From the NCBI RefSeq assembly GCF_900187855.1, contig NZ_FYEG01000005.1, forward strand, positions 1-64,000: a stretch of 64,000 bases of DNA, read 5' to 3'. How positions within the stretch are numbered: the stretch's first letter is position 1; every line of letters starts with the position of its first letter. This document shows positions 12,859 through 41,075 of this stretch, piece by piece. The notes beneath the pieces are model-generated. The model searched no databases, had not been told where the DNA came from, and saw nothing but the letters and a program-made list of their open reading frames with translations. Made by a program: the position numbers and the translations under genes. The stretch comes from Actinomyces minihominis (GTDB lineage Bacteria > Actinomycetota > Actinomycetes > Actinomycetales > Actinomycetaceae).

Positions 12859-12935
12859 GCGCCATTAGCTCAGTTGGCTAGAGCAACAGACTCTTAATCT
12901 GTGGGTCCAGGGTTCGAGTCCCTGATGGCGTACCA
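12859..12935 (+). tRNA. tRNA-Lys (CTT)
   Basis: A full cloverleaf: acceptor strand GCGCCAT (12859-12865) pairs with ATGGCGT (12925-12931), D-arm GCTC, anticodon CTT inside ACTCTTAAT, T-arm GGGTTCGAGTCCC, discriminator A and an encoded CCA (12933-12935). The first acceptor pair is G1-U72 instead of G-C. An intrinsic-type hairpin follows 7 bases later. Confidence 0.97.
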
Positions 12936-12941
12936 AACCGA

Positions 12942-12975
12942 GAAGCCGCACTATCCGTTGAGATGGTGCGGCTTC
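12942..12975 (+). terminator. Terminator of tRNA-Lys
   Basis: A perfect 10-bp stem (GAAGCCGCAC at 12942-12951 with GTGCGGCTTC at 12966-12975) with a 14-nt loop immediately after the tRNA. The following bases (CTCGTTATC) are only weakly T-rich. The rest of the gap to 13209 shows no gene and no convincing promoter. Confidence 0.7.
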
Positions 12976-13209
12976 CTCGTTATCCGAACCACAGGACCCG
13001 CAGGTTCAGCCGAAAGCTAGCGGCAGACCCGAATCCAACAGGCGAGGGCGTGGCTGCGGTGTTAGCATCCAAAGAGCGGCCCCCGTCCGGTGGCTGAAGC
13101 GCGTTGTGCAACTCGACCGACCTGCGCAGAAGCGTTGTAAAACGCGCTGTTCGCAGAGCGTGCCTAGGCGGGGGTGGCCCCGCACTCGACTTAAGAAAGG
13201 GGATCACGA

Positions 13210-14214
13210 ATGTGCACCGTAGTTGTATGGGCTGATAACGGCCAGGCAGTTGTTTCCTCCAGGAACATGGACTGGTTTGAAAAAATGGACACCAAACTGT
13301 GGGTGGTACCCGCGGGGCGTGAGGTCGACGGCGCAGGGGCCGGCGATCCGAAGCCGCTGACGTGGACGTCCAAGTACGGAAGTGTCATCGCCTCCGTTTA
13401 CGACCTTGGAAGTGCCGACGGGATGAATGAGAAGGGGCTCGGCGCTCACCTGCTTTGGCTGACGCCGACTGAGTACGGGGACCGCGATCCTGACATCTAC
13501 GGCCTTTCCGTCAGCCTGTGGGCCCAGTACTACCTGGATAACTACGCCACCGTCGCGGAAGCCGTGGAGGCGTATGAGAAGGAGCCTTACCAGATCATCG
13601 CGGCGGACCTGGCGGGCCGTGAAGCTGTCGTCCACTTGCAGATCAGTGATGCGACGGGCGACGTGGCGATCTTTGAGTCGATTGGTGGAAAGATGACGAT
13701 CCACCACGGCAAGGAATACACGGTCATGACCAATAAGCCGACCTTCGATGAGCAGCTCGCCTCCTTGAAGCTCTACAAGCCTTTCGGTGGCACCCAGGAG
13801 CTGCCTGGGACCACGCAGTCCGAGGCGCGGTTCGCCCGGGCCACCTACTACCGCAACCACCTCACCACCCCGGTTACAACCGACATGGCAGTCGCCGAAA
13901 TCCTGTCTGTGCTGCGCAACGCAGCCCAGCCGTTCGGGGCAGCTTCTGAGGATCAGCCGATGATCGCTCCGACCATTTGGCGCGCAACCTTGGATCACAC
14001 GAACCTGCGCTACTACTTCGAGTCCATGTACACCCCGTACTTGATTTGGCTAGACCTCTTGGATCTAGACTTCACTCCGGGGGCGCCCGTCAAGTGCCTC
14101 GACATGATCGAGATGTCAGACCGGATCGGGGACCAGGTGGACGCCCTGGTGGACGCGGAGCTCTTTAAGTTCTCGGAACCGGTGGAAACCCACCCGACCG
14201 TGAACCCCGCGTAG
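13210..14214 (+). CDS. Choloylglycine hydrolase / linear amide C-N hydrolase
   Basis: A 334-residue N-terminal nucleophile hydrolase (bile salt hydrolase / penicillin V acylase family). After removal of Met1 the catalytic Cys2 is exposed (M-C-T-V-V). Other expected active-site residues are visible: Arg18 and Asp21 in S-S-R-N-M-D-W, an Asn in G-M-N-E-K-G-L (about 75) and Asn in T-N-K-P-T-F-D (about 176). The R-x-M-D-W form resembles the group found in Gram-negative bacteria more than the classic lactobacillus enzymes. No signal peptide is present, so it acts in the cytoplasm. The start follows GAAAGGGGAT. It sits just upstream of an amino-acid permease in the same direction, which suggests hydrolysis of an N-acylated amino acid whose product is moved by the permease. 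Bile salts, penicillin V and acyl-homoserine lactones are all possible substrates. Confidence 0.85.
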   Translation: MCTVVVWADNGQAVVSSRNMDWFEKMDTKLWVVPAGREVDGAGAGDPKPLTWTSKYGSVIASVYDLGSADGMNEKGLGAHLLWLTPTEYGDRDPDIYGLSVSLWAQYYLDNYATVAEAVEAYEKEPYQIIAADLAGREAVVHLQISDATGDVAIFESIGGKMTIHHGKEYTVMTNKPTFDEQLASLKLYKPFGGTQELPGTTQSEARFARATYYRNHLTTPVTTDMAVAEILSVLRNAAQPFGAASEDQPMIAPTIWRATLDHTNLRYYFESMYTPYLIWLDLLDLDFTPGAPVKCLDMIEMSDRIGDQVDALVDAELFKFSEPVETHPTVNPA

Positions 14215-14265
14215 AGGCGCCCGCTTCATACGTGACCGCTCAACTTCTTCAGGGGAGAACTTAAT

Positions 14266-15696
14266 ATGGGAACTCAAAGCCCGGGAACGCCGCCAGGCGG
14301 CAACGCAACGTCGGCGGGTGCTCCGAAAGGCAAGAGCTCGGACCACTCTATCGGGATGATTTCTCTGATCGCCTTCGCGGTCGGAACCATGGTCGGTGGC
14401 GGCGTGTTCGCACTGTCTGGCATGGTCGTGAAGGACGCTGGAGCCGGGGCCATCATCGCGTACATAGCGGCGGGGATCGTCATGACCCTTTCTGCGCTGT
14501 CGTTCGCGGCGGTGGCGTCCCGGGCTAAGCCAGGGGAGACCGGCTACGCGCCAATCGGCACCGTTTTATCGCCGGTGTGGCGGTTCGTGACCATGTGGGC
14601 CTTCTACATCATGGGGGTCACTGGCGTTGCGTACGTGCTGATGTCCTTTGGCAGCTATTTCCTGGTGTTCGTCCCGAAGTCGCACGCAATAATCGTCGCG
14701 ATCATCGCCGCCCTCGCCCTTATCCTCTTGAACTACGGGCCCGCGGGCCTGGTAGGTAAGGCGGAGACGGTGATGGTGGGATTCAAGCTCACCGTACTTT
14801 TGATCCTCATCGTGTTTGGTCTGAAGGCGTTCAAGCCCACGTTCTTCGACCACTGGACGCCGGACGGTATGGGCTCTGTCTTAGCAGCTACGGCAATCCT
14901 GTTCACCGCCTACTCGGGCTTCAACGTGATCACCAACATGTCGGGCTCGGTGAAGAACGCACAGAAGAAGGTGCCGCTGGCCATCGTGTTGTCGTTGGTG
15001 ATCGTTGCGGTCATCTACATCGGCGTGGCTGTGGCGCTGGTCGTGTCTGGAACGTCCTCGGAATCGGGGTTCGAAGAACACGGTCTGACTTTGGCGGCGG
15101 AGAAGCTCATGGGGCACTGGGGAGCGGTCCTGGTTGGCATAGCGGCTTTGGTCTCGACCCTGTCGGGCGCCAACGCGAACCTTCTGGGTTCCTCTGACCT
15201 GATCGTCCGCATGGCGCAAAACGGCGACATTCCCTCCAAGTTGGGGCGTCTGTCGAAGAAGGGAAACCCAATCTCGGCCGTGACCTTGTCGGGAGCGATC
15301 ATTTTGGTGCTGATGGTGGCCGCTCACCTCTCTGGCTCGGGCGGCATGAAGATGATCGTCGTGTTCACCAACGTTTCCGGCATCATTGCGCTGGTGATCG
15401 TTGACATCACGGCTGCGAAGATGGGCTTCCAAGGTTGGAAGACACCGGGAATGAAGCTGTTTGGTGGCGGCGTCATCCCGGTCCTGGCCGTTGCTGCGGC
15501 CTCTTTGCAGATCCCTTCACTCGGCGAGTGGTGGCAGGTAGTCATCGGCGTGGCTATGGTGGCGGTCGGTTTCCTGATTTGGGCCAGGCGCGCCAACTCT
15601 GACCCCCGTGACGTTCAGGACATCACGAATCATGTGTCCAACATGAGCACACCCCTGCTTCGCGTGGCATCGGCGCGCAGCAACAACCCGAATTAG
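14266..15696 (+). CDS. APC-superfamily amino acid permease/antiporter
   Basis: A 476-residue membrane protein with about 12 hydrophobic helices. The first helix has the APC signature G-T-M-V-G-G-G-V-F-A-L-S-G (about residues 43-55), typical of the basic amino acid/polyamine antiporter branch (ArcD and related), and helix 3 has K-P-G-E-T-G-Y. An N-terminal cytoplasmic tail of about 30 residues is rich in Gly, Pro and Ser. The ATG follows AGGGGAG. It starts 51 bases after the amide hydrolase gene, so the two are probably one unit. Codons look richer in G and C than in the core genes around it, which could mean transfer. Confidence 0.85.
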   Translation: MGTQSPGTPPGGNATSAGAPKGKSSDHSIGMISLIAFAVGTMVGGGVFALSGMVVKDAGAGAIIAYIAAGIVMTLSALSFAAVASRAKPGETGYAPIGTVLSPVWRFVTMWAFYIMGVTGVAYVLMSFGSYFLVFVPKSHAIIVAIIAALALILLNYGPAGLVGKAETVMVGFKLTVLLILIVFGLKAFKPTFFDHWTPDGMGSVLAATAILFTAYSGFNVITNMSGSVKNAQKKVPLAIVLSLVIVAVIYIGVAVALVVSGTSSESGFEEHGLTLAAEKLMGHWGAVLVGIAALVSTLSGANANLLGSSDLIVRMAQNGDIPSKLGRLSKKGNPISAVTLSGAIILVLMVAAHLSGSGGMKMIVVFTNVSGIIALVIVDITAAKMGFQGWKTPGMKLFGGGVIPVLAVAAASLQIPSLGEWWQVVIGVAMVAVGFLIWARRANSDPRDVQDITNHVSNMSTPLLRVASARSNNPN

Positions 15697-15709
15697 GCAA
15701 GAGAATCGC

Positions 15710-15750
15710 CGGGTGCCCCGTGGAGCCTTCACTGGGCCGCGGGGCACCCG
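15710..15750 (+). terminator. Terminator-like hairpin after the permease
   Basis: CGGGTGCCCCG at 15710-15720 is perfectly complementary to CGGGGCACCCG at 15740-15750, with a 19-nt loop. There is no T-run after it, so termination efficiency is uncertain, but it lies 14 bases after the permease stop. Confidence 0.6.
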
Positions 15751-15831
15751 CGTACCTGAGGTGGGTTGGGCATGCGGCCAGCGGTAGTATCTGGCTTGGG
15801 AGCGTGACCACTGGTTCAAGGGGGATAGTCG

Positions 15832-16875
15832 GTGAAGGGGAGTCGAGAGTCAAACCTGGGGGACGTCGCGGCCCTTGCGGGGGTGTCTCCGACTACGGTC
15901 TCCCGCGTCCTGAATAACCGCGGCTACTTGAGTTAGGCAACCAAGGACGCGGTGGCAGAGGCCATCGAGCAGTTGAACTACCGGCCCAATGAGGTTGCGC
16001 GCTCGCTGCTGGGCAAGGCGACTCGCGTGGTCGGGATTATCGTTCCCACGACCGCCCACCCTTTCTTCGGTGAGATCAGTGCCGCTTTGGAGAACGCCCT
16101 GGCAGCCCGCGGCTACCGGGCGCTCATTTGCAACAGTCAGGGCCGGCGTGACAAGGAGATCGACTACCTCCACCAACTGGAGGGACGGCGCGTCGACGGT
16201 TTGATCGTGGGCGCCCACAACGACTCAATCGAAGAGTATGAGACGACCCGGCTGCCCATCGTCATGGTGGATCGGCAGGTAGCGGACCAGATCCCGAATG
16301 TTCGAGCAGACAACCTGGAGGGTGGTCGGCTGGCCACGCAGCTGCTCCTTGACGCGGGCAGCACGCGCCCGGCTTTGATCACGTCCAGCCTGGGGCCAGC
16401 GAATCTGAGGGAGGAAGGCTACCGTCGCGCGGTCGCGCAGGCCGGAGTTGAGCCCCTGGTGGCCTGCGTGGAGTTTGGGACGCCGGAACCCCGTCACACG
16501 GAGTTGCTGTCAGCCGCCCTCGACCGGCTCCGAGATAAGGCGGACGGTGTGTTCGCGACAGATGATCTTACGGCCTGTTCGGTAGCCGACTGGGCCAGTG
16601 GCGCTGGACTGCGCGTGCCCGAAGATCTGAAGATCGTCGGATTCGACGGGACCAGCGCAATCCGGATAGCCGCACCTTGGCTCTCCACGGTTCTTCAGCC
16701 TATTTCTCAGATCGCTGCGACGGCGGTAGAGGTTCTCCTGGCGCGTATTGGCGAGGGCGGAGGGGACATCCCCCCGCGCGAATCCCTGGTACTCCCGGTG
16801 TCGGTTCTGGAAAGCCGCTCCACTGGAGGAGCCAACGCAGCGCGGCAGACGCCGCCGTCCGTGTGGAGCCTGTAA
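15832..16875 (+). pseudogene. LacI-family regulator interrupted by an in-frame TAG
   Basis: From the GTG at 15832, behind AAGGGGGA, the frame reads a normal LacI start (V-K-G-S-R-E-S-N-L-G-D-V-A-A-L-A-G-V-S-P-T-T-V-S-R-V-L-N-N-R...), with the helix-turn-helix in place. At 15934-15936 a TAG stands where homologues have Glu or another residue (G-Y-L-S-stop-A-T-K-D). The frame then continues intact to 16875 through the hinge helix (Y-R-P-N-E-V-A-R-S-L) and a full periplasmic-binding-like sugar domain. A single G-to-T change would explain the stop. Re-initiation at GTG 15952 would give a 307-residue effector domain without the DNA-binding helices. Sequencing error cannot be excluded. It probably once controlled a sugar operon, possibly the PTS genes whose remnant lies next to it. 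Confidence 0.85.
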
Positions 16876-16892
16876 CGGCCCGAGAATTGAGA

Positions 16893-16932
16893 CCGGGGGT
16901 GGGCCTCCGTGTCCTTTGAGTCCCACCCCCGG
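16893..16932. terminator. Bidirectional terminator between convergent genes
   Basis: An 11-bp perfect stem (CCGGGGGTGGG at 16893-16903 with CCCACCCCCGG at 16922-16932) with an 18-nt loop, between the LacI-like gene and the chimeric PTS gene, which face each other. Confidence 0.7.
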
Positions 16933-16944
16933 CGTCATCACCTG

Positions 16945-18036
16945 TCAGTCGGCCGCCGGTTTTTTCGGCTCAACGACAAGTAGCTCATCTCCGAAATCAA
17001 TCGGTCCGCCCGCAACCAAGTCTACGGCGGAGAACCGCCGACGGTTGGTTACTAGGACCGGGGTTATGGGGGAATACCCGGCCGCTTCTATGGCGTCTCG
17101 GTTGAAGGAGACGAGGGGAGTGCCAAGGTCGACAGAATCTCCCTTGCGTACATGGACCTCGAAGCCTGTCCTATTCATCTGGACGGTGTCTATTCCTATG
17201 TGGATTAGCACCTCCAGCCCGCTGTCCAGTCTCAGGCCCACCGCGTGGCCGGTTGGGAAGTTCATTACTACTTTGCCGCTGCCGGGGGAGCGCACCAGGT
17301 TCTCGGTCGGGTAGATTGCTGCGCCGGCCCCCACGGCGCCGGAGGCAAAGCCGGCGTCTGGCGTGTTCTCCAGTGCAACGACGATTCCCCGTAGAGGTGA
17401 AGCCAGTGGGACATCATCGCGGGGGCCGAACAGCCCCTGCGCCGTCATCACGTTATTCAGCGACATCATCAAGCCGCCAGCAACCAGGGCGGGGAGCATC
17501 GGCACGAAGATGTCCGCGATCATCTTGATGAAGCGGGATAAGGCATTCTGGTTCTGGGCGGCCTCCGACTTGGCGTCGTCTTTGGAAACCTCCCGCACGT
17601 CCTCGCCCGTCATGTCCTGGCTGAGGTCACGGAAAGACGGAACATTCCCGTTGGCAACTGTCACGGGACGCAGGTCAACCGTGTACAGGACATCACCGGC
17701 ATTAACCAGGTCGCCGGTGCTCACATTCAGCGACGTGAGAGTACCTTCTGCGCCGTTGACACCCAGCGGTGTGGTGTCCCATGCGGCTGTTACCGGAAGC
17801 GGTACTGTCAGGCCGACCTCGATTATCTCCACGGTGACTGAAGCGGGAGCCTCCTCCACACTTTCGATTGCCGGAGGAGCAAAAGCCCACCAACCAAACA
17901 GGACCCCGAGGCCAACGCCTCCCAACAGGAAGGCCACCCAGGTCAGAGCAGACCACACACTGCGACGTCGCGAAGGGATGGTTTCGTCAACTCCCCTTGA
18001 ACCGTGGGCTCCGCTAGAGAGTGGTTCGTGCTGCAT
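16945..18036 (-). CDS. Chimera: export-adaptor N-terminus joined to PTS EIIC stub and EIIA-Glc domain
   Basis: A 363-residue open frame made of three recognisable parts. Residues 1-150: a cytoplasmic tail, one membrane helix (28-50), then a segment like the start of actinobacterial peptidoglycan-binding/HlyD-type export adaptors (lipoyl-like S-T-G-D-L-V-N-A-G-D-V-L-Y, then F-R-D-L-S-x-D-M-T-G-E-D-V-R). Residues 151-204: the junction and first membrane helix of a trehalose/sucrose-type EIIBC (S-R-F-I-K-M-I-A-D-I-F-V-P-M-L-P-A-L), with the rest of EIIC missing. Residues 205-340: a complete-looking EIIA-Glc domain, with the phosphorylated histidine in L-I-H-I-G-I-D-T-V (H279) and its partner in G-H-A-V-G-L (H264), 15 apart as in the family. 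A 20-residue tail follows. Topology would place the adaptor part outside and EIIA inside. The start ATG follows GAGGATA. Both flanking genes are damaged, so a double deletion is likely, though the frame is intact. Confidence 0.8.
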   Translation of the reverse strand: MQHEPLSSGAHGSRGVDETIPSRRRSVWSALTWVAFLLGGVGLGVLFGWWAFAPPAIESVEEAPASVTVEIIEVGLTVPLPVTAAWDTTPLGVNGAEGTLTSLNVSTGDLVNAGDVLYTVDLRPVTVANGNVPSFRDLSQDMTGEDVREVSKDDAKSEAAQNQNALSRFIKMIADIFVPMLPALVAGGLMMSLNNVMTAQGLFGPRDDVPLASPLRGIVVALENTPDAGFASGAVGAGAAIYPTENLVRSPGSGKVVMNFPTGHAVGLRLDSGLEVLIHIGIDTVQMNRTGFEVHVRKGDSVDLGTPLVSFNRDAIEAAGYSPITPVLVTNRRRFSAVDLVAGGPIDFGDELLVVEPKKPAAD

Positions 18037-18050
18037 CACTATCCTCTGGG

Positions 18051-18676
18051 CTACAGAGCGGGGGCAACCGCTTCGATGACCATTCCCCCGCCCTGAGGGC
18101 AGACACTATTGAGTCGAGAGAGCTCCTCCCACGAGACCTCGACGTAATACGCGGAAGACCGATCGGAAAACACCACATAAGGGCTGTAAGCCGACGCGCC
18201 CGTGACCGAATCAATCCACACTTGAGCCGAAGGAGCTTCCGGAATTTCATACCCCTGGTCGATCAGACAGGCCCGAGTATCCAAAACGCGCTGGTACATC
18301 TCTTCATTGACCGCTCCAGTCAAAAGACCCGGTTCAGTAACTTGCCCACTGCAGTACTCCGAGGCGGCCTCAGCCAAAGCCGCCTGCGCCGGATCAGTCT
18401 TACCTTCACTGTCAGTGGGTGTACTGACCCCAACCATTCCCGTACTTGTAATCGCAGCACGCACCTGGCTAGAGAGAGCATCCGGGGCCGCCACACCTTG
18501 AGTTTCCAAGCAGGAGAGCATCGCCAAACGGCTCTCCTCAACCTGCTGACGAGCAGTCGCCATCCACACAGGCTCCTCGTAGGAGTTACTCACCGACGTC
18601 GTGGTTGAGGCACACCCCCGGCCAGCAGCGCGAATACTGCCACTGCGGCGCCTACTGAAAGCTTCCAATAGCTCAC
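18051..18676 (-). pseudogene. Lipoprotein of unknown function, frameshifted in its lipobox
   Basis: From a GTG at 18676 the frame reads a lipoprotein-type signal (V-S-Y-W-K-L-S-V-G-A-A-V-A-V-F-A-L-L-A-G-G). In the run of five G (minus strand; 18615-18619) it slips out of the frame that carries the mature part beginning C-A-S-T-T-T-S-V. One more G would join the two as L-L-A-G-G-C, a usable lipobox. The mature part, about 190 residues, has four further Cys and ends G-G-M-V-I-E-A-V-A-P-A-L; I do not recognise a domain. It could also be read as an uninterrupted frame from a TTG at 18668, but that version lacks a signal peptide. It precedes the adaptor-like gene by 14 bases, as expected for one export unit. 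Either a true mutation, a slippage site or a base-call error. Confidence 0.65.
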
Positions 18677-18958
18677 TACTCGTCGTCCATTAGCTGCAGA
18701 AGTAGGATCCCGAATCGATATTCGCCCCAAATCTGGACCAGTTGCCTACTGGAGCGTTACCGTACACTTCCGGTGTGAACGCATATGCCCAGTTAAGCGT
18801 TGTGCTAGCAGCAGTGCGCTAACAGTCGATGCAAGTTTCTTCGGTGTTTCCCCCGCTTCTATGCGTGGTGTCCCAAGCATTTCTTGAGATTTACACCATA
18901 ATAACAGGCAAAGTTGCTCGTTACTTTGAGCAAAGGTGCAGGGTTAGACTCTAGTTCC

Positions 18959-21676
18959 CTATCGCAGCCATTTCATCAGGGCCGCCTTTGCAGCCTCAAC
19001 CACGAGGAACGTCGCCAGGGACAGCCCCAAGATGAGCCCCCACGCGCGCAGACCGATGGAAGCCGACCCGAACCATGTGTGCATAAACGGCGTATACACA
19101 AACACCAGTTGCAGGGCGATCATGATCCCAGCCGCCAACCAAATCAAGCGGTTACCGGTCAGGACACGAACCGTCAGCGCGGAAGTGTTGATGAACCGGG
19201 ACGAGAACAGGAAAGCGAGTTGCGCGAAAGCCAGCATGGTGACAGCCGTGGTCTGGGCCTGCGCGTGAGTTTGTCCGTGGGATGAGGCGTAGAGGAAGAC
19301 TCCGAACGTCAGTCCGCCAATAAGCACGGAAGCAAGAGCGATGATCAGCAGGTGGCGGGCACTAAGTAGCGGCTCATCCGGGTCGCGCGGACGACGATTC
19401 ATTATGCCGGGTTCGGCCGGTTCCGCGGCGAGCGGCAGCGAAAGAGTCACCGCGGTGATTAGGTTGATCCAGAGGATCTGGACGGGGGCCAGCGGCAGGG
19501 TCACCCCGAAGAGGACAGCAACCAGGATAACCAGGGACTGGGCGCCGTTAGTGGGGAGGAGGAACACCAGGGACTTACGTATGTTGTCGAAGATGCGCCG
19601 ACCTTCTTCAACAGCGCGCTCGATCGTGGCGAAGTTGTCATCGGCGAGGACGATGTCGGCGGCTTCCTTGGTGGCCTCGGTTCCCTTGATTCCCATTGCG
19701 ACACCGACGTCAGCGCGCGTCACCGAGGGTGCGTCGTTGACTCCATCTCCGGTCATCGCCACCACTTGACCGCGGGACTGCAGGGCCCTCACGATGCGGA
19801 TCTTGTGTTCGGGGCTGGTTCGGGCGAAGACATTCACGTCCTTGACGCGCTGACGTAGCTCATCTTGCGTCATGGCTTCGATCTCTGCGCCGGTGATCGC
19901 GAGTTCTGCCGGAGTGCCATCTCGCTCCGCGATTCCCAGCTCTTGGGCGATTGCCACCGCTGTTCCTGAGTGGTCGCCGGTGATCATCTTGACGTTGATT
20001 CCCGCACCGTGCGCCTTGGCGATAGCAGCAACGGCTTCGGGGCGGGGTGGGTCGACAATCCCAAAAAGGCCGAGGAAGGTGAGGTCCTGAACATCATCAA
20101 GACTCAAGGTTTTGGGGTCGAGGTCGGTGGCGTCCCGGCTTGCCGTGGCAAGAACACGGAGGCCGTGGCTCGCAAGCTCCGCGTTGTACTCGTCCCAACC
20201 CGGCTCATCAACTGGGTGCTTCGTGCCGTCGCTATCCACTTCCCAGTTGGAGCGGGCCATGATTCTGTCGGGGGCGCCCAGAACGTGCAGGACGCGTGAT
20301 CCGTCGGGCATCTGGTCGAGGGAGGCGGAGAACTTGTGCTCGGAATCAAATGGGATCTCTGCGAGTCGCACGCTTTGCGAAGCAAGTCCCGCTTTGCGGG
20401 CCAGGGTTGTCAGGGCACCTTCGGTCGGGGCGCCGACCAGCGTCCATTCCCCATCTTTCTGTTGGATCTCCGCGTTGCTCGTAGCAGCGCCGGCCCCGAT
20501 GAGTTCAGCTAGGCGTGGGTGAGTATTGATATCAACAACTTCGCAATCAACCAGCACATTGCCAACGGGGGAGTAGCCGCCACCGGTGACTTCAAAGATC
20601 TGGTCGCGGGTCGCCCCTTCCCGTACGGTCATTTCGTTCTGCGTCAGCGTTCCAGTCTTGTCGGAGCAGATAGTCGTGACCGATCCCAGTGTCTCCACCG
20701 CAGTCATCTTGCGTGTGATCGCATTGTTGGAAGCCATCTGCTTAACACCCAGAGCCAAGGTGATGGTGACGAGGGCGGGCAGACCCTCCGGCACTGCCGC
20801 CACCACGAAGCTAATCGCCGCGGAGGCGAGGTCGTCAATGCTCATGTTGTAGACAACGCGCCCAACTACCACGATGATCAGGGCGATTATCCCGATGGCT
20901 AACGATATCCGCCGCGCTAGAAGGCCTAGTTTTTGGGCGAGGGGAGTCTCCATATCCTCGACCTCGTCTACCATCGCGGTGATCCGCCCGATTTCTGTGG
21001 CCATCCCGGTTGCGGTAACGACCCCGATAGCCGTGCCACTGGAGACGATGGTGGAAGAGAACAGCATTGAGGACCGGTCGCCAACTCCGGCGTCGACGCC
21101 TACGGAGCGGTTGTCCTTCTCGCTCGGCTCGGACTCTCCTGTCAGCGCGGCTTCATCAACCCGCAGGTTCGTCGCTTCCAGGATCCGCACATCGGCCGGC
21201 GCCCGATCCCCCGCAGACACACGAATGATGTCTCCGGGAACCAAGTCTTCCGAAGGTACCTTCACCCAGGATCCATCCCGAAGGACCCGCGCTTCCAAGG
21301 AAAGCATCTTCTTAATGCCCTCCAACGCGTCCAAAGCTTTGCCTTCCTGGATGAATCCGACCAAGGCGATGATGACCGCAGCCGCGAGGATTACCGCGAA
21401 GTCCACCCAGTCGCCAATGATGGCTTTCAGGGCCGCAGAGCCAAGCAGGATGTAGATGAGGACGTCATCGAAGTGCATCATGAACCGCACGATTGCGGGT
21501 TTGCCCTTCTTGGCGTCAAGGGCGTTTGGCCCAACGGCCTCCAAACGGGTCTGTGCCTGTGCGGAGGTTAGCCCGTCCGAGGAGGTATCTAGAGCTGTCA
21601 AACTCTCCTCGGGTGAGATCGCGAAAAAGGCGGTGTCCCCGGGAGCAGAGACACTGGGCGGCGAAGACTGGGTCAT
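18959..21676 (-). CDS. Cation-translocating P-type ATPase (Ca2+/Na+-type)
   Basis: A 905-residue P2-type ATPase that exports cations (calcium, or Na+/K+-like) using ATP. The order is complete: N-terminal cation-ATPase domain, actuator loop with L-T-G-E-S-E-P, membrane helix 4 with V-P-E-G-L-P, phosphorylation site C-S-D-K-T-G-T-L-T-Q-N-E-M (Asp at about 346), nucleotide-binding domain, M-T-G-D-G-V-N-D-A-P hinge, and six C-terminal helices. No N-terminal metal-binding CxxC motif is present, which argues against a heavy-metal P1B pump. The ATG follows GAAAGGCC. It stands alone. The 282-base gap on its stop side, up to the lipoprotein, shows no gene. Confidence 0.93.
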   Translation of the reverse strand: MTQSSPPSVSAPGDTAFFAISPEESLTALDTSSDGLTSAQAQTRLEAVGPNALDAKKGKPAIVRFMMHFDDVLIYILLGSAALKAIIGDWVDFAVILAAAVIIALVGFIQEGKALDALEGIKKMLSLEARVLRDGSWVKVPSEDLVPGDIIRVSAGDRAPADVRILEATNLRVDEAALTGESEPSEKDNRSVGVDAGVGDRSSMLFSSTIVSSGTAIGVVTATGMATEIGRITAMVDEVEDMETPLAQKLGLLARRISLAIGIIALIIVVVGRVVYNMSIDDLASAAISFVVAAVPEGLPALVTITLALGVKQMASNNAITRKMTAVETLGSVTTICSDKTGTLTQNEMTVREGATRDQIFEVTGGGYSPVGNVLVDCEVVDINTHPRLAELIGAGAATSNAEIQQKDGEWTLVGAPTEGALTTLARKAGLASQSVRLAEIPFDSEHKFSASLDQMPDGSRVLHVLGAPDRIMARSNWEVDSDGTKHPVDEPGWDEYNAELASHGLRVLATASRDATDLDPKTLSLDDVQDLTFLGLFGIVDPPRPEAVAAIAKAHGAGINVKMITGDHSGTAVAIAQELGIAERDGTPAELAITGAEIEAMTQDELRQRVKDVNVFARTSPEHKIRIVRALQSRGQVVAMTGDGVNDAPSVTRADVGVAMGIKGTEATKEAADIVLADDNFATIERAVEEGRRIFDNIRKSLVFLLPTNGAQSLVILVAVLFGVTLPLAPVQILWINLITAVTLSLPLAAEPAEPGIMNRRPRDPDEPLLSARHLLIIALASVLIGGLTFGVFLYASSHGQTHAQAQTTAVTMLAFAQLAFLFSSRFINTSALTVRVLTGNRLIWLAAGIMIALQLVFVYTPFMHTWFGSASIGLRAWGLILGLSLATFLVVEAAKAALMKWLR

Positions 21677-21808
21677 GTTCGGCCTTTCGAAGAATGCGCC
21701 TATTTTACTTCACGCGCCGTTCTGCCCTCACGAACGCGACAACGAAGAGACAGGAAGGTGGACTTTTCCTTTAGGGGACTTGTGCGTCAGGGTGTCGCAG
21801 CTGGAGAC

Positions 21809-23053
21809 TTAACGGGCCTTGGAACCTCTGGAGGATGTGACGAAGGGGTAGAGGATCAGCCACAGGATGATGCCAATGGCTAGGACCAGACGTGGGTCTT
21901 CGGGTAGACCGGCGAAGTAGCCAAGATTGAGCCCGATAATAGTTCCGGCGGCACCGAAAGTGAACGACCAGCTCATGATGCGGGTGTACTGCTCACCCCT
22001 GAAGAAGGTTTGGCGGTGCGATTGAAGGAGAACGGCGCGCGAACGGCTCAGGGTCCCGTTCACGAAAATAAAGATGCTTCCCCAGATGAACCCGGGATCA
22101 CCAAGGAGGAGGGCGCCTAGTAGGACTGCCAGGTTGAGGGCTGACAGGACCGCGGTGAGTCTGAGTGATCTTGCTGTCCCGAAGTAGTGGCCCATGAACC
22201 GCCCAACCTGCGGGCCCAGGGTGGCAGAGATTCCAAACACCGCGACTACTAGCGCCATGGCATCAGTGGTCGGGATCGATGCCTGGCGTGCCACCCAGAC
22301 CAGCATCAATGTTCCGGTCAATGAGGAAACCATGCTCAGTCCGAACTCAATCAATGGTGAGGTCGGACCAGATGCGAACAAGTCATGGAAGAACTGCCTG
22401 GCCCGCATACCTGAACCGACCAGCTCGAAGTCGTCCATGTCGACATCTACGATGGCTCCCATGGGGTACTTCTTCCGAGCCCTCCCCCTGATGAAGGCTC
22501 CGATCAACGACAAGACAACGTTGATACCCAGAGCCAGAGGGATTGAGATGCCTGCCAAGAAAGCACCCAAAGGGGATGCAATCACGAACCCACTGAAGGC
22601 GAGCAGGGAGTGGAGGTGGGCATTAAACCGGAGGTTCGCCTCAGGCTCGACCTCAGCAACTTTCGCCCCGTACATTTCCTCAGAGATATCTGTGACCGGG
22701 AGCAGAAGCGTTGTGAAAATGAGATAGAAGATGACAGAGCCTATTGCCCAGTCGGGGATCAGAAGAATCACTATAACGAGGACGGTTGAAACAACTGCCT
22801 CCGTTAGGTCAGACACGATCATCGCTGTGTCTGGCGAGAACCGCTTCAGCACCCGCGCGTAGAGCGGGAATGCGAAGACTACGACCTCGTTCAGCGATTC
22901 AAGTAGCACCAACGCAACTGAGGCGATCAGGCCCGCGGCTACTAGACCGTTGAAGGTTCCGTCAATTAGACGGTTCCCTAAGACTGATACAACCAGGCCC
23001 GCGATCATGAGGAACCGGGCACGTACCAGCAGGCGGGCTGCTGGTTTACTCAT
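21809..23053 (-). CDS. MFS-like transporter
   Basis: A 414-residue protein with about 12 hydrophobic helices and a central cytoplasmic loop (about residues 190-225, rich in charged residues including D-V-D-M-D-D-F-E). This fits the major facilitator layout, but no substrate motif is recognised. The ATG at 23053 has AAGGAG 7 bases upstream and the product starts M-S-K-P-A-A-R; an in-frame ATG at 23068 would add five residues and lacks a ribosome-binding site. It lies downstream of the sortase gene in the same direction, 201 bases away, with a small hairpin (GACGCT/AGCGTC at 23142-23158) in the gap. Confidence 0.7.
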   Translation of the reverse strand: MSKPAARLLVRARFLMIAGLVVSVLGNRLIDGTFNGLVAAGLIASVALVLLESLNEVVVFAFPLYARVLKRFSPDTAMIVSDLTEAVVSTVLVIVILLIPDWAIGSVIFYLIFTTLLLPVTDISEEMYGAKVAEVEPEANLRFNAHLHSLLAFSGFVIASPLGAFLAGISIPLALGINVVLSLIGAFIRGRARKKYPMGAIVDVDMDDFELVGSGMRARQFFHDLFASGPTSPLIEFGLSMVSSLTGTLMLVWVARQASIPTTDAMALVVAVFGISATLGPQVGRFMGHYFGTARSLRLTAVLSALNLAVLLGALLLGDPGFIWGSIFIFVNGTLSRSRAVLLQSHRQTFFRGEQYTRIMSWSFTFGAAGTIIGLNLGYFAGLPEDPRLVLAIGIILWLILYPFVTSSRGSKAR

Positions 23054-23254
23054 CCGCACTCCTTGCATCTTTGCAATCTTGACCGGATCCGATCATAGGT
23101 GACCCAGCCGTTGCTGCGCGAGGTGAGAGCCCAAGTAACCTGACGCTGTTATAGCGTCCGCTCGCTAGCGGGTAGTGGAGTTCCTTTTGGAAATCCTTTC
23201 CGGCTCAGAAACTCAAGGTTTGGTGGGCCTCGAGATCCTGCTATCAGGCAGGTC

Positions 23255-24169
23255 CTAAGGCGCCGCGGCATGGGCAGGCGACAAACTCTGGTTCGCTTCG
23301 TAAGGCTTGCTGCGTCGCTTGCGGACGGAGTTGGCAACCAGTGCGAGTGTGAGCAGAGTGCCCACGATCAGTGCTGTGGTGACAGGGGTTTTACCCAGTA
23401 TGACTGGTCCTTCGAGGGGGATTGCAATGGGGTTTTCAGTGTGGGTAGCGATCGCTTCCACCCTCTCTGCGATCACTAGCAACCTGTGGGTGTTCACCCC
23501 GTAAGGGGTGCAGGTGACAAGGGACAGTAGGTCCCGACCCGGCTGGGCGCGCAGGTGGTGGAGGCCGTCTTCCGGTGTGTCAACCACATGGTCAACCACG
23601 CTGTAGGTCAGGGTCTGGCCGAGGACGTCGATGTAGATCAGGTCTCCCAGGCCTAACTGTGGAAGGGCGTCAAACATTGAGGCGGTTATCATTCCTGAGT
23701 GCGCGGTGATTGCGGCACTAGTGCCGCTACCGCCAACAGGGAGGCTGGTGCCCTCGAGGATTGCCGCACCTTTCAACAGGTTCTCTTCACTGGAGGTAGC
23801 GTAGACCGGAAGGTCGATTCCAACTGAAGGGACCTGGACTCGGGCTCGTACACGGCTTCCTTCCAGCTCCAGTGCACGCCCAGCCCCGCTGAGATCCCCT
23901 GCCTCATTAGCGCTAACCGCAAGCGCGAACTTCTCATCGCGGTCTGGTGGTTGTGCCAGAGAGTACTCCGCAAGGTCTTGTGAGTGGCCCGCGTTGGTCC
24001 ACCATTTTGCCACTGCGGGGAAGGTGAGCAGGAGGAGCCCAACCACGATCACGACCAAGCCGATGATGAGCTTGGCGTGACTGTGGCCGGGTTCCTTCTT
24101 TTGCCGAGGGCGGGCTTCCCTGAGTGACCTGCGGCTGGGGTGGGGGGAGGTCCTCAGGTCAGAGTTCAC
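23255..24169 (-). CDS. Class C (pilus-assembly) sortase
   Basis: A 304-residue transpeptidase that polymerises pilin subunits. After a basic tail comes one membrane helix (about 34-55), then the sortase barrel with catalytic His157 in T-A-H-S-G-M, Cys210 in L-V-T-C-T-P-Y-G and Arg219 in N-T-H-R-L-L-V; the C-terminus has a second membrane helix and a basic tail, typical of class C. The lid motif is less clear, possibly D-L-P-V-Y. The GTG at 24169 overlaps the pilin stop (GTGAACTCTGA), giving coupled translation. The open frame extends to 24283 but that region is inside the pilin gene. It is specific by position to the LPLTG pilin upstream. Confidence 0.93.
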   Translation of the reverse strand: MNSDLRTSPHPSRRSLREARPRQKKEPGHSHAKLIIGLVVIVVGLLLLTFPAVAKWWTNAGHSQDLAEYSLAQPPDRDEKFALAVSANEAGDLSGAGRALELEGSRVRARVQVPSVGIDLPVYATSSEENLLKGAAILEGTSLPVGGSGTSAAITAHSGMITASMFDALPQLGLGDLIYIDVLGQTLTYSVVDHVVDTPEDGLHHLRAQPGRDLLSLVTCTPYGVNTHRLLVIAERVEAIATHTENPIAIPLEGPVILGKTPVTTALIVGTLLTLALVANSVRKRRSKPYEANQSLSPAHAAAP

Positions 24170-25613
24170 GCCTCGACCTGGAGAATGCCACGGCCCCACC
24201 ACCAACTGCGATGAGGGCAAGTCCGGCAATGATGATTCCTGTGGTTCCTGCCGCACCAGTGAGGGGTAACGTGCCTCCGGCATTGTGGGGAGTGTTGACC
24301 ACCTCTATCGTGGCTGCGGATTCAATCTGACTGGTAACGGTGAAGGGGATGGGTTTTGCAAGCAGTTCAAAGCCTGCTGGAGCCTTGGTCTCAACTAGCC
24401 AGTAGTGGTTGTAGCCGGGTTCTCCCACTGCAGTCTGCTTGCCATCAGCCCAGTTTGAGTAGCGCAGACCACTGATGGTCACCTTGCCGTCGGCGCCGCT
24501 CTGCCACTGTCCGGTTCCATTAACCGTGACCTTGGCTGCGGTGGAGAAGTCATTGGTGTGAGAAGCGTGAACCTCAAAGATGGCTCCGGCAAGGGACTTT
24601 CCATCTCGGTCCTTCTTGAAGACGTTGATGCCCCCGAACTTGGTTTCGACAACCGTGGAGGGGACTTCGGTGACATGTTCGTCCTCACGCTGGAATGTCA
24701 GAGTGGCATCGTTGGCGATTTCGCCGGCTGCAATGACCTGAGCCGTGTGACTCACCGTCACCTTCGCAGAGGGGTTGGTCTGGAGGGCATCGAAGGCGGC
24801 TTTGCGGGCCGATGCCCCCAGGGTCACGGTGACGAGGCCGCCGGTGTGGGTGGCGGTGAAGTCGGCGGTCGGGGTTCCGGAGACGCGAACGTTGGTTGAG
24901 AGGTACTTCAACTTTGGATCAAGCTGGTCAGTGACGATGTATTTCGTAGTCTGCGCACCTCCGGGAATGGTCGAGTCGATGCTGTATGTAATCTCCTGTC
25001 CGAGCGCATAGATGGGGGCGTCGGTGACAGATTTTTCGACCTCGCTGATCACATTCTTGGGGTAGGCGTGGACGTCGTACACCCAGCTGCTGCGGTCCGA
25101 GGGGTCCGTGAGGGGCACGGTGATGAGGAACGGCAGCGACTTGGTTACAGCTGCGTTGGGGGCAACTTCCGGGGCGGCAGTCTCCTCGACCAGGTACAGG
25201 CCAACGGGCAGGCTGGAGAACTTTGCGATGCCCTGAACGTCAGTGATCAGCGTTTTCGCGCCGGTGAGGGTGTGTCCCGACTGGGTGATGGTACCTGGAT
25301 CGAGCGGATCAAAACTGTCAACCAGGGCCTGCGCTTCCTGCCAACCGGGGTTTGACTTCAGGTTGATACCGCTGACCTGCTGGATACGGAAGGTGGCTCC
25401 CGATAGGGGAGTGAGACCGCTGGTACTTCCTGAAGTAACCGCCATGCCCTGGTTGTCCGGAAGATAGGAGGGTGGCTGAACGAACTTGTAAATGGTGATA
25501 CTTCCCATGGCATCATCTGGGATCAAGTTTGGGGGTGCCGCGCTCGCAGTCGTGGCAGAGGCTGCAAGCAGAGCGCTTGCGGTCAGGAGGCCGGCAATAC
25601 TGTGTTTGCTCAA
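24159..25613 (-). CDS. Major pilin (SpaA/FimA-type), LPLTG
   Basis: A 484-residue pilus shaft protein. A signal peptide ends near residue 26 (A-S-A). The pilin motif is V-H-A-Y-P-K-N (lysine 186), the residue used for inter-subunit linkage. Two E-boxes are seen: G-L-Y-L-V-E-E-T-A-A-P (about 138-148) and Y-W-L-V-E-T-K-A-P near residue 410. An isopeptide-forming D2-type domain lies between. The sorting signal LPLTG is at 449-453, followed by a membrane helix and R-S-R-R-E-L. The LPLTG and the domain order resemble the FimA/FimP fimbrillins of Actinomyces. The start codon is TTG, preceded by AGAAAGG. The sortase gene overlaps its end. No tip-adhesin gene stands upstream, unlike the three-gene fim clusters. 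Confidence 0.93.
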   Translation of the reverse strand: MSKHSIAGLLTASALLAASATTASAAPPNLIPDDAMGSITIYKFVQPPSYLPDNQGMAVTSGSTSGLTPLSGATFRIQQVSGINLKSNPGWQEAQALVDSFDPLDPGTITQSGHTLTGAKTLITDVQGIAKFSSLPVGLYLVEETAAPEVAPNAAVTKSLPFLITVPLTDPSDRSSWVYDVHAYPKNVISEVEKSVTDAPIYALGQEITYSIDSTIPGGAQTTKYIVTDQLDPKLKYLSTNVRVSGTPTADFTATHTGGLVTVTLGASARKAAFDALQTNPSAKVTVSHTAQVIAAGEIANDATLTFQREDEHVTEVPSTVVETKFGGINVFKKDRDGKSLAGAIFEVHASHTNDFSTAAKVTVNGTGQWQSGADGKVTISGLRYSNWADGKQTAVGEPGYNHYWLVETKAPAGFELLAKPIPFTVTSQIESAATIEVVNTPHNAGGTLPLTGAAGTTGIIIAGLALIAVGGGAVAFSRSRREL

Positions 25614-40745: not shown

Positions 40746-40976
40746 CTAGGCCCGATCGTTAATCTCATCAGCAAGGTTGTCGGCAATTGGTCCGACAACA
40801 ACCTGGACGGTGTCCCCAACCTGCACTACGCCAAAGGCTCCGGCATTCTTGAGGGCCGCCTCATCAACCAGTGCCGAGTCAACGACCTCGACCCGAAGTC
40901 GCGTGATGCAGGGCTCAATCGTCTCAATGTTTTCGATTCCACCAAGTCCAGTAACAATGTCCTGTGCCTGAGACAT
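40746..40976 (-). CDS. Stand-alone PTS EIIB domain, glucose/sucrose type
   Basis: A 76-residue protein covering one EIIB-Glc domain and nothing else. The phosphorylated cysteine is in I-E-P-C-I-T-R-L-R-V (about residue 23), and V-V-V-G-P-I-A-D-N-L lies near the end. It would pass phosphate from EIIA to a sugar bound to an EIIC. Neither EIIC nor EIIA is adjacent. Separate EIIB proteins are known in actinobacteria (for instance the N-acetylglucosamine system of Streptomyces), so this need not be a fragment. The ATG at 40976 has AGAGGATGAG directly upstream; a GTG at 40991 would add five residues. Confidence 0.88.
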   Translation of the reverse strand: MSQAQDIVTGLGGIENIETIEPCITRLRVEVVDSALVDEAALKNAGAFGVVQVGDTVQVVVGPIADNLADEINDRA

Positions 40977-41075
40977 CTCATCCTCTTTCACTGAAGTTGC
41001 AGCGCCAAACTAACCCGAGTTACGGCGGCCTGGTCGCCGTGATTTTCAAAGTACCACGGGGTCGAGCGGGTGGCT

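Follow-up and report, generated by a model that had tools for sequence, protein, structure and literature searches.

In Mycobacterium tuberculosis, deletions that span multiple genes have produced gene fusions, and the expression of at least one of these has been demonstrated by mass spectrometry (PMC7671302). This general paper on deletion fusions was the only relevant item found in the literature on an EIIA fusion of the kind described here. Full-length relatives of its parts are encoded separately in other genomes. In Xylanimicrobium pachnodae, an intact adaptor of 372 amino acids (L024:7204-8322) belongs to an operon with the gene order lipoprotein, adaptor, ABC ATPase, and permease, and related adaptors in members of the family likewise adjoin genes for an ATPase and a permease. 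Runs of at least four related short lipoprotein genes accompany an adaptor-ABC operon in two members of the family, the genomes G149 (L163:8088-12685) and G180 (L164:2696-7505). In the congener G003, the gene order is scrB-scrA-(one gene)-lacI: the scrA gene (L102:8572-10647), which encodes an EIIBCA protein that scores 568.6 against the sucrose-specific profile TIGR01996 (cut-off, 559.3), follows a gene for a sucrose-6-phosphate hydrolase (GH32, TIGR01322), and the LacI-type regulator gene, one gene further on, is convergent with scrA.

The window analyzed here, a stretch of 64,000 nucleotides, carries on its reverse strand a chimeric open frame of 364 amino acids (positions 16945 to 18039; start codon GTG at 18039, alternative ATG at 18036; stop codon at 16945-16947). 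No stop interrupts its 364 codons and AGAGGA precedes the ATG at 18036, so that a plausible ribosome site and start are retained. Searches against Pfam and NCBIfam matched each part, in agreement with a prior sequence-only reading that had recognized three family signatures in one uninterrupted frame. The adaptor remnant (positions 17599 to 18039, reverse strand; residues 1-147) comprises an N-terminal membrane anchor at about residues 29-53 followed by an extracytoplasmic lipoyl-like part, with a match to Biotin_lipoyl_2 (residues 98-122) slightly below the cut-off, and extends to the first residues of a peptidoglycan-binding domain. It is followed by a sucrose EIIBC remnant (positions 17419 to 17598, reverse strand; residues 148-207), which consists of the end of the EIIB-EIIC linker and the first EIIC helix. 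Here, TIGR01996 matches residues 144-211 with its positions 80-144 of 461, and PTS_EIIC matches residues 176-199, below the cut-off and only with its positions 2-25 of 319. The last part is a complete EIIA-Glc domain (positions 16948 to 17406, reverse strand; residues 212-364) that matches PTS_EIIA_1 (PF00358) at residues 212-334 with an E value of 3.4e-45 and a score of 153 bits against a cut-off of 27.2, covering profile positions 3-125 of 127. Both active-site histidines, previously placed at residues 264 and 279, are present (265 and 280 when numbered from the GTG), and the alignment with the solved IIA-Glc domains 1ax3 and 1f3g is gapless across both of them. Chance is not an issue for the individual parts, because all three are homologous coding sequences read in their native frames. 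In the absence of selection, about 1 pair of joins in 9 would preserve the frame at both sites.

Despite these matches, the chimera belongs to neither of the parental families. It falls outside the ABC-exporter adaptors, being cut at residue about 148 and having as its neighbor a convergent LacI gene instead of an ATPase or permease gene, and it falls outside ScrA, lacking EIIB and covering so little of the EIIC profile. In the proposed start of an export-adaptor/peptidoglycan-binding protein, the peptidoglycan-binding domain is represented only by its first few residues (GEDV), and a profile search for PG_binding_1 found no match in the chimera. The X. pachnodae adaptor, 57% identical across chimera residues 25-153, has such a domain at the same spot, starting where the adaptor part of the chimera stops. 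Immediately upstream of the chimera, the window contains a relative of the X. pachnodae lipoprotein gene. Given this operon and the lipoprotein match, the start of the chimera represents the second position in an exporter operon of this kind, the rest of which was lost after the first peptidoglycan-binding residues.

The other two parts point to the sucrose locus. The EIIC head and the EIIA domain share a single gene as their best match, scrA of G003 (50 of 60 residues and 78% nucleotide identity in the EIIC head; 65% identity in EIIA), and the LacI regulator of G003, convergent with scrA, is 68% identical to the one facing the chimera. Residues 148-364 are therefore most simply derived from scrA of a sucrose locus. 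The candidate explanation that the middle and last thirds came from different genes is less likely, as they match this single gene in its own order and orientation; the third-position GC content (0.88 in the middle part versus 0.68 in the last part, a small sample) counts toward separate origins. The exporter operon and the sucrose PTS gene would once have been adjacent.

Junction 1 (positions 17587 to 17610, reverse strand; residues 144-151) lies in the GEDVREV region, where the frame crosses over from one parent to the other and both parents encode V-R-x-V. The G003 scrA product reads ..DKGVREVSKDE.., the X. pachnodae adaptor reads ..TGHDVRQVQQLL.. (TGHDVRQVQQ), and the chimera reads TGEDVREVSK. 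The motif common to both parents suits a microhomology deletion, which may have created this junction; the ancestral DNA is gone and with it the extent of the shared sequence. At junction 2 (positions 17404 to 17421, reverse strand; residues 207-212), EIIC just past helix 1 continues in frame with the last part of the EIIC-EIIA linker. Relative to G003 scrA, about 1.16 kb is absent here, the gap being flanked by scrA residues 155 and 543.

The neighboring genes are damaged as well. The LacI-type regulator of the sucrose locus (positions 15832 to 16875, forward strand) is disrupted by an in-frame TAG at 15934-15936, directly behind the helix-turn-helix, at a position where the intact LacI of G003 reads through; the LacI frame as listed, from 15952, does not include the DNA-binding part. 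In the exporter operon, the lipoprotein gene (positions 18051 to 18682, reverse strand, the upper end being approximate) was recovered by tblastn with the X. pachnodae lipoprotein, in a match that begins exactly at GCAS. Its signal peptide and mature part are in different frames that meet at the lipobox, in a G run near 18617, where a sequencing error is possible. A search of this genome, which is 95.5% complete, revealed no GH32 sucrose hydrolase. Because of the TAG in LacI, the gutted scrA, and the missing GH32 enzyme, the sucrose pathway is damaged or missing throughout, and this bacterium seems to have lost sucrose use; the sucrose PTS has likely fallen out of use in one species of an Actinomycetaceae-like genus.

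Among the genomes searched, the chimera occurs in this one only. It was not found elsewhere in the genus, its full-length form was absent from all 212 other genomes of the family, and none of the 79 related loci in a one-genome-per-species prokaryote collection carried it as a unit; no plasmid record covered 80% of it, and viral contigs contained none. Within the limits of the public genomes, the full-length parents are thus found as separate genes in relatives, and the junctions exist in one assembly only. The closest sister, G005 (about 88 to 90% DNA identity, 85% complete), shows no trace of the chimera; its contigs end at tRNA-Lys and diverge at 23265, which places the locus outside their view. 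The tRNA-Lys(CTT) gene (positions 12859 to 12935, forward strand) forms the left edge of a stretch of about 10.3 kb (positions 12936 to 23264) not found in G005 and bounded on its other side by the break in synteny with that genome. The stretch, which may represent a variable region or an island, encodes a choloylglycine hydrolase-like protein, an amino acid permease, LacI, the chimera, the lipoprotein, a P-type ATPase, and an MFS-like protein. The first of these (positions 13210 to 14214, forward strand; PF02275) is possibly a bile salt hydrolase. A gene for a pilin-like surface protein with an LPxTG-type end and a sortase-like gene, at positions 24159-25613 and 23255-24283 of the reverse strand, overlap slightly.

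Occurrence in a single assembly, one of 24 contigs, is also what an assembly or binning artefact would produce, with unrelated contigs joined or sequence skipped. Such an artefact is very improbable, since the flanks are continuous, with LacI convergent as in G003 on one side and a lipoprotein matching the adaptor operon on the other; both joins lie inside unique coding sequence, where two in-frame joins would be rare for an assembler, and the adjacent nonsense codon and frameshift fit true decay.

Based on a comparison of sequences, the chimera is very probably a fusion pseudogene, an in-frame leftover of a decaying sucrose locus hit by two deletions, and is best read as ordinary gene decay rather than as a new sensor protein. 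The damage to the neighbors, the missing hydrolase, the intact separate parents, and the restriction to a single genome support the alternative offered by the sequence-only reading, namely a scar left by two deletions that brought an export operon and a sugar PTS operon together. With separate full-length parents, junctions in one assembly, and neighbors damaged or lost, the membrane protein reporting PTS flux that this reading had favored finds no support. However, the in-frame joins, the absence of a stop, the retained start and ribosome site, and an EIIA with few altered near-invariant columns and no faster change than its G003 relative count against a mere scar, and the neighbor damage would also fit a fusion that predated it and was retained.

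These features raise the possibility of a functional membrane-anchored EIIA, in which the adaptor part would serve as the anchor and a cytoplasmic EIIA, phosphorylated by HPr, would act as a flux sensor or as a phosphate donor to an EIIB. Its active site is intact, it differs at only 2 of 27 near-invariant columns (G to R and D to N), and relative-rate counts (16-18 versus 12-19) show the chimera EIIA to be no faster than its G003 relative. The near-intact state of the domain implies either that the second deletion was recent or that the domain keeps some use or constraint. EI is encoded in the genome, and the same window contains a stand-alone EIIB gene (81 amino acids; positions 40746 to 40991, reverse strand) between malQ and pepN. 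This functional reading is nevertheless very unlikely. The chimera is restricted to one genome, whereas the stand-alone EIIB, 98% identical in G005, is kept in all 6 genomes of the genus, G003 and G005 among them even though neither has the chimera; the orphan EIIB was accordingly rejected as a partner of the chimera. It has an EIIA gene beside it in G001 and G002, no stand-alone EIIA was seen in G000 and G003, and no EIIC-only partner for it was found in G000. The other EIIC-bearing genes have their own EIIA (two of them EIIA-Glc, the third being of the fructose type), and no EIIBC without one was found in this genome, which leaves the EIIA with no obvious client. The EIIA part is enriched in rare codons (6.5% versus 0 to 5.7% in other genes of the window), and no sigma-70-type promoter-like site was found near the chimera, although this carries little weight in an organism of this kind.

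Membrane topology also argues against a functional product. In native EIIC proteins, the start of helix 1 is cytoplasmic. As the second helix of the chimera, it would have to insert against this native direction, leaving the preceding basic residues R169 and K172 outside. The in-out-in topology, earlier regarded as consistent, is thus possible but unfavorable. More doubtful still is the idea that the fusion has been kept as a useful tethered EIIA, for example, as a donor to, or a sensor with, the orphan EIIB, which would make it a deletion-born PTS signaling protein.

Under the preferred interpretation as a fusion pseudogene, an scrA gene for an EIIBCA protein, facing its LacI regulator, would have been preceded by a codirectional exporter operon (lipoprotein, adaptor, ABC ATPase, and permease). 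A first deletion, probably between short similar stretches coding for V-R-x-V, would have fused the adaptor at about codon 148 with scrA at about codon 96, removing the remaining exporter genes and EIIB. A second, in-frame deletion within scrA would have removed EIIC helices 2 to 10 and most of the EIIC-EIIA linker. The LacI regulator and the lipoprotein gene broke too, and no sucrose-6-phosphate hydrolase remains. The parts, their intact parents elsewhere, the neighbor damage, and the missing hydrolase are observed, and from there we infer the former adjacency of the two operons, the order and mechanism of the deletions, and the lack of function. With a truncated adaptor and no ABC partner, the chimera cannot export, and without EIIB and an EIIC pore, it cannot carry sugar; if translated, it could at most be a membrane-attached EIIA idling as a phosphate acceptor. 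As a protein, the chimera is of little importance. It serves as a clear illustration that what looks like a new three-domain protein can be a scar, revealed by the state of the neighboring genes; should its EIIA be shown to be active, it would instead exemplify a new signaling protein born from deletions.

Among known systems, ScrA (TIGR01996 with PF00358), exemplified by the G003 protein, is the source of residues 148-364 (the linker end, EIIC head, and EIIA), but the chimera lacks its EIIB and EIIC helices 2 to 10. The X. pachnodae adaptor, with its N-terminal anchor, lipoyl-like part, and PG_binding_1 domain, represents the source of residues 1-147, and the same lipoprotein gene lies upstream, whereas the chimera locus is devoid of the peptidoglycan-binding domain, the remainder of the adaptor, the ATPase, and the permease. 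The stand-alone, Crr-like EIIA-Glc of G001 (C1:1572355) shares the EIIA fold and the histidine pair with the chimera but is soluble, separately encoded, and merely 30% identical to the chimera EIIA. A parallel in origin is with the M. tuberculosis fusions (PMC7671302), in which deletions similarly bring the first part of one gene into frame with the last part of another and leave an open chimeric frame. Unlike those fusions, the chimera needs two deletions and lies in a locus that is itself decayed. By analogy with the M. tuberculosis fusion that is expressed, a product of the chimera may exist, too.
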